A DNA stretch of 25,090 nucleotides, from the NCBI GenBank assembly GCA_003665825.1, contig QPFY01000063.1, positions 1 to 25,090 of the forward strand, written 5' to 3'. The notes under the pieces were generated by a model. The model searched no databases. It saw nothing but the letters and a program-made list of their open reading frames with translations, and was not told where the DNA came from. Position numbers and translations under genes: made by a program. Of the stretch, positions 1-25,090 are shown piece after piece. Origin of the DNA: Microbotryum silenes-acaulis. Lineage: Eukaryota > Basidiomycota > Microbotryomycetes > Microbotryales > Microbotryaceae. The stretch's first letter is position 1. Every line of letters begins with the position of its first letter.

Positions 1-2521
1 GGGGGGGTGAGTTCGTCAACAACGACCTCCGGGATTGGCTTGCTGAGCGGGGCATTTTTCACGAGCTATCCACGGCATACGAGCACGGTCAGATGGGCAT
101 ACAGGAACGGAGTTGGCGTACGATTTTCAACTCTGTTCGGGCGTGGCTTCATCGTTCAGGACTGCCGTCATCGCTGTGGGAAGAGGCTGCGCAGGCGGCC
201 ATCTACATTATCAACCTCCTCCCGTCGTCGCCTCTGCAGCAGCGCACCCCTGATGCCGTTCTTCACGCCGCTGCGAGTCCCGTTACGTCCACCCGTCGTC
301 CCCGCATCGATCGTGTCAAAACCTGGGGCTGCGCCGCCCAGGTACCGTTCGCTCCCGAGCAACGTTCCAACAAGTTGGCTCCGCGTTCGCGCCTGTGCTA
401 CTTTGTCGGGTACTCTTTGCGCTCTAAGGCCTGGCGCTTCTACGACCCGGTTGGCAACAAGGTCTTCGAGTCGTCTCAGGCCAAGTTCTTCGAAGATCGC
501 TTCTTCCCCGCCGCGGCAAACCCTGTACCTACTGTTGTTGCGCCCGCCGTTCTGTCCTATCCGTCCGTCCCGCGCAGAGTTCCTCCGCCCGACCTTCCCC
601 CTGACGACGACGATACTGTCAATCCTGCGGGCGTCGCACCCGCCGTCGCGGCCGCTCCCGCTGTTGCCCCCGCCGTTGCTGTCCGCCCGCGGCTGGTCCG
701 GTCGACGTTGTGGCCCCACCTGTCCCGCCTCCCTCGTGTTCTCCAATCCGGGTCCGGCGAACGCCCCTCCTGTAGGTGATCGTTCCACTCGTGCTCGTCG
801 CCCCCTGACTACCTGGGTTTCGCCCGCGCGGCTCACGACTTGGAGTTCGCCGCGCACGCCTCCGTCTCGATCGAGGACTTTGACGAGGACGATCCCGACG
901 TCCAGCTGTACTCGTACGAGGAAGCGACTGCCTTTCTTGCCAAAGTCGATAAGGACGACGCCCCTACCGTTCGCGCGGCACTCGCTGGTTCGTTCCGCGA
1001 CTACTGGCTGGCGGCCATGGCGACCGAGGAGGGCGCACTGGCGGCGAAGCAAACATTTTCCAAGCCGCTTCGTCCCCCTCGCGGGGCTATCATAATCGGC
1101 AGTATGTGGGTCCTCATGGTGAAGCGCGACGCCGAGGGCAAAATCGTAAAGTACAAAGCTCGCCTCGTTGCGCGTGGGGACATGCAGAGGCGTCGGGGTG
1201 AGCAAATTGACTCGTTCTCGCCTACTGGCCGCGCCGCCTCCCATCGCCTGCTGCTCGCCCTTGCCGTTGAGAACGAGTGGGAGACCCGGCAATTCGACGT
1301 CTCGTCGGCATACCTCAACGGCATCTCGGTGGGACGGAGATCTACATGCGTCTGCCCAGTGGGCAAGTCGGTGCGCCTTCAGCGCGCGCTGTACGGACTC
1401 GTCCAGGCGGGTAGGGAGTGGTACAAAGGTCTTCACCGAGTGGATTTTGTCGATTGGCTTCACGCGTACCGACAGCAATCATGCCGTCTTCATTCGCAGG
1501 GAAGGGGATAAGCGCTGTTTCCTTTCCATTCATGTCGACAACGGACTGCTCACGGTGACGGCGACCTCGATGGCGTTCTCACTCAGCTCAAGGCGCGTTT
1601 TGAGGCCCGCAGCACGGACGAGGCGTCTTCTTCCTGGGTCAGAGTATAAACCGTGAGGGCAAAACGGGCGCGGCCATCGTTATCCAATCTCATTTTGTGG
1701 ATGCGATTCTCGAGGAATACAACATGGCCAACGCCTCCCCGCGTCCCACCCGCTTGCGGCACCGTCGACGCTGAGGAACCGTGTGAGCTCTGATTTCGAC
1801 CCCGCTTCCATACCGTACCGTGCCATTGTCGGCAAACTCTGTATCTGTCCGGCACTACTCGCCGACATCGCTTTTGCCGTGTCCAAGGCTGCTCGTTTCT
1901 GTAACAACTTCGAGGCGGAACATTGGGAGGCGCTCAAGCACATTCTCCGTACCTCGTCGGCACTCGTAACTTTGGCATTCGATACCAGAAAACCCATCAG
2001 CCGATGTCGGCCATTTTGGAGGGTTTTTGTCGACGCGGACCATGGTGCCGACCCTGTGACCCGCCGCAGCGTCTCGGGTTACGTCTTCACGTGCGCTGGC
2101 GGGGCAATCTCCTGGATCGCCAAACGTCAGACTCTTGTCACTCTGTCGAGCACCGAGGCCGAATATGTGGCCATGTCGTACGCCGCTCGTGAGGGGATCT
2201 GGTTGCGTCGGCTGCTGGCCGATCTTGGTTTTGAGCAGACATCGCCGACTCGTCTGAGGGGTGACAACCAATCGGCTATCACTCTGGCCAAACACCCGGC
2301 TTCCATGCTCGCACCAAACACATCGGGATCCATTCCACTTCATCCGAGATCACATTGCGGAGGGCACAATCGAGATGGTCTGGGTGCCCACGGGCACCAT
2401 GGCTGCGGACGTCCTCACCAAAGGGCTCGGAACTCAGAAGCACTATCAGTTTGTACACGCGATGGGGCTTATCGATTCATCGCGTGAAGGGGCGAGTTGG
2501 TGTGTTGGGAATGAGGGTTAG
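1..2521 (+). pseudogene. Copia-A pol, part 2: integrase C-terminus, reverse transcriptase, RNase H (frameshifted)
   Basis: Polyprotein segment for integration and reverse transcription in cytoplasmic virus-like particles. In order: the DDE glutamate in GIQERSW (codon 105-107); the integrase C-terminal segment with VKTWGC and CYFVGYS; a variable acidic linker; RT with KARLVARG, motif [12 protein letters not shown] (Asp codon 1296) and [12 protein letters not shown]; RNase H with Asp at 2032, Glu in STEAEY at 2155 and Asp in GDNQSAI at 2263; then the end segment VLTKGLG. The RT catalytic box reads HVDNG (1531-1545), where HVDDG would be expected. The frame is broken near 700-780, 1324, 1367, 1425 and several points from 1500 to 2330. 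Breaks at 1324, 1367 and 1425 are absent from the duplicate at 24950-25070, so at least those are probably base-calling errors. The final frame runs a few codons into the LTR. Confidence 0.88.
2484..2494 (+). promoter_or_regulatory. Candidate polypurine tract of copia-A
   Basis: A purine-rich run (GTGAAGGGGCG) lies directly upstream of the 3' LTR start, where plus-strand DNA synthesis is primed in LTR retrotransposons. The assignment rests on position and composition only. Confidence 0.45.
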
Positions 2522-22707: not shown

Positions 22708-25090
22708 GTACGGGTCCCGACCCATCGGTTTGACGACGACTCTTACGAGAACTATTTTGCCGAGGTCGCCCTTGACACCGAAGTCTCTGCGCTGTACTTG
22801 CACGACGGTCCCCGCTACCTCCTCGACTCGGGGGCGACGCGCCACATGGACCACTCGTCGGGATCTCTTGGTCGACTTCCAGCCTTTCACGACGGAGCGG
22901 GTGCGCGTAGTCGGCGCATTCAAGTCCAGCGCCATGGCTGTCGGCAAGGGCACCCTTCGCTTTGACGCCAATGGCGCGCTCTCGAGCTCCGCGACGTCCT
23001 TCTCGTCCCGGGTCTGTCCGCCGAGCTCGTCTCTTCTTGCCAGTCTCATGAAGGATGGGTACCAGCTGTCTGGGATTTTGCGACGCCGCGGGCGCACACT
23101 CTGGTCTCACCGTCTCGGGTCCGGGCTTCGAGTCTCACCTTTGCTCTCGATCGCAACCACTACGTTCTCCAGGCGAGTCCGGCCTCACCTCCTCTGGCGG
23201 ATCACCACGCGCTGACAGCCACCTCCTTGCCTACAGATGTAGTGCTTTGGCATCAGCGTTTGGGTCATCTGTCCTGGGGGTCGTTTGGTAGAACTTGCTA
23301 AGTCGGGCGACATTTCCCTCGACATCTCTGCTGTAACCCGGGATCAACTTCGTCTCCTCGATCAGTGCGATGCCTGCTGCTCCGGCAAGGCCGTGTCTGC
23401 CCCCAGTCGTGAGGCTGCCCACCACCCCGCCGACGTGTGGGGGCCTTCCCCTGTCCCTGCTTCTCTCCGGCGTCCGATATCTGTGCGGTGTCACGGATGA
23501 ATACTCGCGTTTCCCGCTGGGCTCGCGGCATTCGGCTCAAGAGCGAGGCTTCGTCCGTACTCAAGGGCTTCGTTGCGATGTCGAAAATCCAGTATGCTGG
23601 CCCGGGAGTGGCGACCTTGCGCACGGATAGGGGGGGTGAGTTCGTCAACAACGACCTCCGGGATTGGCTTGCTGAGCGGGGCATTTTTCACGAGCTATCC
23701 ACGGCATACGAGCACGGTCAGATGGGCATACAGGAACGGAGTTGGCGTACGATTTTCAACTCTGTTCGGGCGTGGCTTCATCGTTCAGGACTGCCGTCAT
23801 CGCTGTGGGAAGAGGCTGCGCAGGCGGCCATCTACATTATCAACCTCCTCCCGTCGTCGCCTCTGCAGCAGCGCACCCCTGATGCCGTCTTCACGCCGCT
23901 GCGAGTCCCGTTACGTCCACCCGTCGTCCCCGCATCGATCGTGGTCAAAACCTGGGGCTGCGCCGCCCAGGTACCGTTCGCTCCCGAGCAACGTTCCAAC
24001 AAGTTGGCTCCGCGTTTCGCGCCTGTGCTACTTTGTCGGGTACTCTTTGCGCTCTAAGGCCTGGCGCTTCTACGACCCGGTTGGCAACAAGGTCTTCGAG
24101 TCGTCTCAGGCCAAGTTCTTCGAAGATCGCTTCTTCCCCGCCGCGGCAAACCCTGTACCTACTGTTGTTGCGCCCGCCGTTCTGTCCTATCCGTCCGTCC
24201 CGCGCAGAGTTCCTCCGCCCGACCTTCCCCCTGACGACGACGATACTGTCAATCCTGCGGCGTCGCACCCGCCGTCGCGGCCGCTCCCGCTGTTGCCCCG
24301 CCGTTGCTGTCCCGCCGCGGCTGGTCCGGTCGACGTTGTGGCCCCACCTGTCCCGCCCTCCCTCGTGTTCTCCAATCCGGGTCCGGCGAACGCCCCTCCT
24401 GTAGGTGATCGTTCCACTCGTGCTCGTCGCCCCCCTGACTACCTGGGTTTCGCCCGCGCGGCTCACGACTTGGAGTTCGCCGCGCACGCCTCCGTCTCGA
24501 TCGAGGACTTTGACGAGGACGATCCCGACGTCCAGCTGTACTCGTACGAGGAAGCGACTGCCTTTCTTGCCAAAGTCGATAAGGACGACGCCCCTACCGT
24601 TCGCGCGGCACTCGCTGGTTCGTTCCGCGACTACTGGCTGGCGGCCATGGCGACCGAGGAGGGCGCACTGGCGGCGAAGCAAACATTTTCCAAGCCGCTT
24701 CGTCCCCCTCGCGGGGCTATCATAATCGGCAGTATGTGGGTCCTCATGGTGAAGCGCGACGCCGAGGGCAAAATCGTAAAGTACAAAGCTCGCCTCGTTG
24801 CGCGTGGGGACATGCAGAGGCGTCGGGGTGAGCAAATTGACTCGTTCTCGCCTACTGGCCGCGCCGCCTCCCATCGCCTGCTGCTCGCCCTTGCCGTTGA
24901 GAACGAGTGGGAGACCCGGCAATTCGACGTCTCGTCGGCATACCTCAACGGCAATCTCGGTGGGACGGAGATCTACATGCGTCTGCCCAGTGGGCAAGTC
25001 GTGCGCCTTCAGCGCGCGCTGTACGGACTCGTCCAGGCGGGTAGGGAGTGGTACAAGGTCTTCACCGAGTGGATTTTGTCGATTGGCTTC
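22708..25090 (+). pseudogene. Copia-A pol, part 1: protease, integrase, start of RT (frameshifted)
   Basis: Protease site LLDSGATRHMDH (Asp codon 22824), the classic copia form. A GAG-pre-integrase HHCC domain: WHQRLGHLS (first His 23251) and CDACC (23366 onward). Integrase core: Asp in ADVWG (23432), Asp in RTDRGGEF (23626) and Glu in GIQERSW (23734); the last two are 36 codons apart, a clear DD35E. RT begins with KARLVARG and motif [12 protein letters not shown] (Asp 24926), and the window stops before the catalytic box. Frame breaks at about 22860, 23290, 23460, 23885-23945, 24015 and 24260-24320. Those around 23885-24015 are absent from the duplicate at 255-390. No stop created by a substitution was recognised. 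Confidence 0.86.
23630..25090 (+). repeat. Terminal direct repeat, identical to 1-1461
   Basis: Line-by-line comparison shows zero substitutions and twelve single-base indels, all in homopolymer runs or doublets, balanced six to six so both copies are 1,461 bases. This is what overlapping ends of a circular or tandem sequence look like when read with indel-prone sequencing. Confidence 0.93.

Follow-up and report, generated by a model that had tools for sequence, protein, structure and literature searches.

A recombinant LINE2 at the joint of a 23.6-kb nested-retrotransposon unit in Microbotryum silenes-acaulis

The window analysed here is the complete contig C63 of the Microbotryum silenes-acaulis genome assembly, a stretch of 25,090 bases made up of nested retrotransposons, whose overlapping ends close it into a unit of 23.6 kb. 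The assembly comprises 29.85 Mb in 88 contigs, and labels such as C3, C4, C5, C21 and C70 denote other contigs in it. The joint responsible for closing the sequence into a ring was located in LINE2, a long interspersed nuclear element (LINE) at 12880-20382, and not at the contig ends, which meet within the element copia-A. This LINE2 is a recombinant, produced by the cell or by the assembler, of two copies designated K1 and K2. With a probability of about 0.6, we read the window as one nested-retrotransposon unit of a head-to-tail chromosomal duplication that arose by recombination between K1 and K2. The original prediction, made from the sequence of the window, had left the choice between an extrachromosomal circle, a head-to-tail array and an assembly-graph cycle; the array fits best, and the circle and the assembly cycle remain as rivals. 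It had also described the content as retrotransposons only, which agrees with a comparison of 20 frames of the window to Pfam: these gave retroelement domains or no match, no host-gene domain was among them, and the content is mobile-element sequence.

The chromosomal unit and the recombinant LINE2

Five junction stretches of the window were tested and all recur at 98-100% identity in C5 (1,700,905-1,717,139, reverse) and in C70. The matching part of C5 covers window positions 20409 down to 2 and then 25090 down to 14975, which amounts to 29 kb and more than one turn of the ring because LINE2 is present at both sides. The order in C5 is K1, gypsy, a LINE2 fragment, a LINE1-like repeat containing copia-A, and K2. 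K1 occupies 1,693,416-1,700,925 and K2 extends from 1,717,057 to a break at window position 14975; both are on the same strand and flank one unit in direct orientation. Contig C21 also ends in this block, which lies in a stretch dense in transposable elements (TEs), and overlaps the K2-side end of C5 by 16.3 kb; identity over this overlap is 99.8%, with mismatches at 6 positions and 24 gap openings. The two contigs most likely lie next to each other on a single chromosome. C70 (21.8 kb) is a circular permutation of C63 that covers 0.92 turn, and neither it nor C63 (25.1 kb) exits the ring into other DNA.

K1 and K2 are 99.4% identical over 5.4 kb and differ at 27 sites. The LINE2 of the window has the K1 allele at the first 15 of these sites (15020-18817) and the K2 allele at the last 12 (19309-20401), which places a single switch from K1 to K2 within 491 bp. 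At all 27 sites C70 agrees with the window, and C21 with K2. The flanking sequences follow the same pattern: the 5' flank in the window is that of K1 and the 3' flank that of K2, while the 3' flank of K1 itself is absent. In C5, K1 sits within an inverted solo long terminal repeat (LTR) inside the gypsy integrase, which resumes after K1; the remainder matches SH3 and a chromodomain, and also an integrase core with a score under the Pfam cut-off. The solo LTR in C5 has GATGA on both sides, and C21 represents the empty site. K1 is native in C5. Together, K1 alleles followed by K2 alleles and the two corresponding flanks form the product that an unequal K1/K2 exchange would leave between two tandem units. 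As in tandem duplications formed by non-allelic homologous recombination, a recombinant repeat with two parental flanks is found at the unit boundary, and the parental repeats flank one chromosomal unit in direct orientation.

A single base distinguishes the contigs further. The 40-mer with the C63 base at position 21786 was found in the assembly only in C63 and C70, and the alternative 40-mer only in C5 and C21. A second physical copy of the unit is likely to exist, as C63 and C70 share a base that is missing from C5 and C21.

Tandem duplication and competing explanations

In the proposed mechanism, K1 and K2, having the same orientation, would undergo unequal exchange, leaving the recombinant LINE2 between two tandem units. 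The expected order would be C21, K2, unit 1, recombinant LINE2, unit 2, K1 and C5. The window would then begin within the copia-A of unit 1 and finish within that of unit 2. This would explain why the ends of C63 overlap, and C70 would continue into unit 2. The single unit in C5 would represent a collapse of two nearly identical units. Such a process would be passive amplification; nothing points to a function. C21 and C5 were left unmerged in the assembly despite their long and nearly identical overlap, and a branch at an array would cause that.

Exactly such a recombinant LINE2 would also remain in a 23.6-kb circle that K1/K2 recombination within one chromatid had released as free extrachromosomal DNA. 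Closure of C63 on itself and the permuted C70 suit such a circle and are also expected of a tandem array. Circles formed by recombination between retrotransposons are described for yeast (PMC4751563; PMC11879418). A fresh circle should, however, be identical to its chromosomal source, whereas at 21786 C63 and C70 share a base other than the chromosomal one; an old, maintained circle could differ. Furthermore, the reciprocal product, in which the 5' side of K2 is joined to the 3' side of K1, was not found among the 40 candidates scored per junction: the complete K1 3' junction occurred only in C5 and the K2 5' junction only in C5 and C21. A circle alone also gives no account of the unmerged C21 and C5. 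We consider this explanation improbable.

The switch could instead stem from the assembler. If the assembly graph failed to keep K1 and K2 apart, C63 and C70 would be redundant contigs built from the reads of a single chromosomal copy. The 5.4 kb at 99.4% identity common to K1 and K2 would permit this, indels are numerous in the copia ends of the window and in the final part of C70, and overlapping ends also occur in another small contig, C72. On the other hand, C63 and C70 share a switch interval of 491 of about 5,400 bases, for which we estimate a coincidence of independent false joins of about 1 in 11 if joins fall evenly, and the base at 21786 common to both is missing from the chromosomal contigs. 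An assembly cycle thus appears unlikely. A further arrangement, a second copy that lies elsewhere and not in tandem at C5/C21, or a structural variant in part of the sequenced culture, would agree with the lack of an anchor outside the ring in C63 and C70. It would require a further junction to unrelated DNA, of which there is none in the 25.1 and 21.8 kb of these contigs, and we regard it as very improbable.

Several points weigh against the tandem duplication. C5 as assembled contains one unit, and the array requires that it is collapsed. The placement of C63 and C70 is inferred, because neither leaves the ring. The high similarity of K1 and K2 makes a false join by the assembler possible as well. 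The case for two copies consists of one substitution, and C5 and C21, taken as one locus, differ at 6 positions in 16.3 kb, which implies that bases near contig ends are sometimes wrong. The analysis covered assembled contigs, and the arrays used for comparison were drawn from the same assembly.

These comparison arrays consist of equally spaced TE units and provide a precedent for an array, not a proof. Near the start of the 2.12-Mb contig C3 (4678-41574), seven matches to the 563-bp gypsy LTR are spaced at 6.04-6.06 kb, and three such matches occur in C51 (30.5 kb) at about 6.05 kb. TE-rich tandem units were found in C4:6657-31711 (three at 11.93 kb) and in C13:1054910-1075747 (two at 13.56 kb, seen at three markers). 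Two TE matches lie 14.9 kb apart in C6 and 16.8 kb apart in each of C66 and C43, and C48 has spacings of 16.8 and 11.9 kb. In six pairs of neighbouring units, each sampled over 1,200 bases, the numbers of mismatches were 0, 0, 0, 0, 2 and 2; the C4 and C13 samples showed no substitutions between neighbouring units. A tandem-repeat scan of pieces of C5, C53 and C29 gave a few short arrays only.

Tandem duplication by recombination between repeats is a known kind of event and not a new one. The present case resembles tandem segmental duplication by non-allelic homologous recombination in that LINE2 copies in direct orientation lie on either side of the block and a LINE2 with a single switch stands at the boundary; it differs in that the unit is wholly mobile-element sequence and the linkage of two units is putative. 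With the extrachromosomal circular DNA of yeast, such as the Ty circles and the GAP1 circle (PMC4751563, PMC11879418), it has in common a recombinant joint between direct repeats. The yeast circles described in PMC4751563 are mostly single full-length Ty1 elements, whereas here 23.6 kb with several nested elements would be involved in a LINE-LINE recombination, and the base at 21786, private to C63 and C70, points to a persistent copy. Haploid Microbotryum genomes assembled from PacBio reads are reported to have chromosome arms often broken at putative centromeres (PMC5962589), and Copia and Ty3 elements are given as 77-94% of centromeric TEs in the genus (PMC10502011). The block resembles these putative centromeres by its setting alone, as it lies in a TE-dense stretch where C5 and C21 end.

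What deserves attention is thus not the pair of contig ends but an exchange between two LINEs, localised to 491 bp. If the tandem duplication is correct, nested-retrotransposon blocks would increase in number without transposition, and this could account in part for the way assemblies of such fungi break at TE islands. More tentatively, and less likely than not, the TE islands of this fungus may grow by LINE-driven tandem amplification of whole nested blocks of 6-24 kb, a way of building heterochromatin similar to that of higher-order repeats. The window could then represent the youngest step, with two units one substitution apart and the exchange confined to the 491-bp interval.

The contig ends and the copia-A insertion

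Realignment of positions 1-1461 to 23630-25090 gave no substitutions and 12 single-base homopolymer indels, as originally described; in the BLAST alignment this overlap appears with 2 mismatches and 10 gaps. Sequence 1-1461 was found at 99-100% identity in at least 39 other places (40 of 84 candidates scored, window included). Since the overlap lies in this high-copy copia family, the end match alone is no proof of one molecule, and the match of the contig ends was rejected as proof of a ring. The 12 indels look like consensus errors because C5 and C70 contradict the left end at six of them and the right end at the other six; for this reason biological differences were rejected as their origin. 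Three substitutions between C63 and C5 at 1650-1684 are contradicted by C70 as well and look like errors of C63. Indels relative to C5 cluster in the body of copia-A near both ends (684-2334 and 22680-24314), and the middle has hardly any over most of its length.

As a control, both ends of 12 other contigs were compared. For ten of them only the first 1,000 and the last 2,000 bases were set against each other; C70 and C53 were covered more fully, C53 except for its final 53 bases. The ends of C72 overlap in direct orientation over about 2.05 kb (1-2051 with 19194-21243), with no substitutions and 17 gap openings. This contig has a period of about 19.2 kb and contains internal direct and inverted repeats of 4.2-5.2 kb. 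The ends of C68 repeat each other in inverted orientation over about 1 kb (98.8%). Matches of just 79 and 125 bases were obtained for C69 and C71, those for C65 and C74 were weak and diverged, and the remaining contigs of the 12 showed no terminal overlap. Self-overlapping ends are therefore not peculiar to C63 within the assembly, and in a genome rich in repeats a contig whose ends overlap is no evidence of a circle.

Closing the ring yields one complete copia-A of about 5.0 kb with 215-bp LTRs at 21346-21560 and 2495-2709 and GGTGA on both outer sides. The completion of this element by overlaying the ends, as predicted, was confirmed by C5 and C70, each of which holds the whole element in one piece running through the copia join. 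At 22 loci with the LINE1-like 3' flank and without copia-A the empty site was sought; at 21 of these the flanks adjoin with a 5-bp overlap, as expected of an empty target, and for the exception (C14:370721) the partner match was not among the matches listed. The copia join is genuine and copia-A is an ordinary chromosomal insertion, so this join is uninformative on circularity. The proposal to overlay the ends into a ring thus held for the reality of the copia join; that join is chromosomal, and the ring-making joint is located in LINE2 instead. For the same reason, the suggestion that copia-A halves anchored in different unique flanks would speak against a ring addresses the wrong join.

Composition of the window

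The features of the window are listed in Table 1. Copia-A has the hallmarks of Ty1/copia elements, namely LTRs, an integrase, RVT_2 following the integrase and a 5-bp target duplication. LINE2 carries RVT_1 and an upstream Exo_endo_phos in one frame and an A-run at 20372-20382, as non-LTR elements do. The gypsy element combines RVT_1, RNase H, integrase and LTRs, typical of Ty3/gypsy, with a chromodomain. The repeat at 2710-4336 we take to be LINE1-like from its layout, and the segment at 20432-20740 is presumably copia-like, judged from a motif. An assignment of 6603-7143 and 12340-12879 to the 5' part of LINE2 was rejected, as both are LTR sequence in two orientations.

Table 1. Features of the 25,090-base window
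Feature	Position	Strand	Basis
Left contig end, overlaps 23630-25090, within copia-A (SH3_retrovirus, start of RVT_2)	1-1461	+	Alignment, Pfam
Copia-A internal region, left-hand piece past the overlap	1462-2494	+	Comparison with C5 and C70
Copia-A 3' LTR, 215 bp	2495-2709	+	Direct repeat
Target-site duplication GGTGA, 3' of copia-A	2710-2714		Repeat; empty loci
LINE1-like dispersed repeat, first part, target of copia-A	2710-4336	-	Genome matches; without Pfam match
LINE2 3' part, reverse	4337-6580	-	Inverted repeat with 18115-20382, 98.4%
Gypsy 5' LTR, 563 bp (TG...CA)	6581-7143	+	LTR comparison; many further copies
Gypsy body (RVT_1, RNase H, Integrase_H2C2), cut in integrase, remainder in C5	7144-12339	+	Pfam
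Inverted solo gypsy LTR in gypsy integrase, itself interrupted by LINE2	12340-12879	-	GATGA on both sides in C5; empty in C21
Full LINE2 (RVT_1, Exo_endo_phos) with A-run end; K1/K2 recombinant	12880-20382	+	Pfam, diagnostic sites
K1-to-K2 switch interval of LINE2, ring-making joint	18818-19308		27 diagnostic sites, 15 then 12
LTR remnant of another copy, K2-side flank of LINE2	20383-20431	-	88% over 25 bp to LTR end; K1 flank differs
Tail of another copia-like element	20432-20740	+	20428-20739 recurs elsewhere
LINE1-like repeat, second part, opposite side of copia-A	20741-21345	-	Genome matches, empty loci
Target-site duplication GGTGA, 5' of copia-A	21341-21345		Repeat; 21 of 22 empty loci
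Copia-A 5' LTR, 215 bp	21346-21560	+	Direct repeat with 2495-2709; shared by C5 and C70
Copia-A internal region, right-hand piece	21561-25090	+	Alignment, Pfam, C5 and C70
Single-base variant with one form restricted to C63 and C70 and its alternative to C5 and C21	21786		40-mer searches
Right contig end, overlaps 1-1461, within copia-A (end of integrase core, SH3, start of RVT_2)	23630-25090	+	Alignment, Pfam

A tRNA search of the window found none, and the only tandem repeat detected was one short two-copy repeat present in both copies of the overlap. In its polymerase region, the gypsy element is 94% identical to a protein of Microbotryum saponariae. The gypsy frame also contains a 202-bp direct duplication (75%; 11227-11428 and 11440-11641) between RNase H and the integrase zinc finger. 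The chromodomain of the gypsy element follows the integrase in C5 (piece L013:2319-3389); in similar elements, a chromodomain in this position is linked to chromatin targeting.

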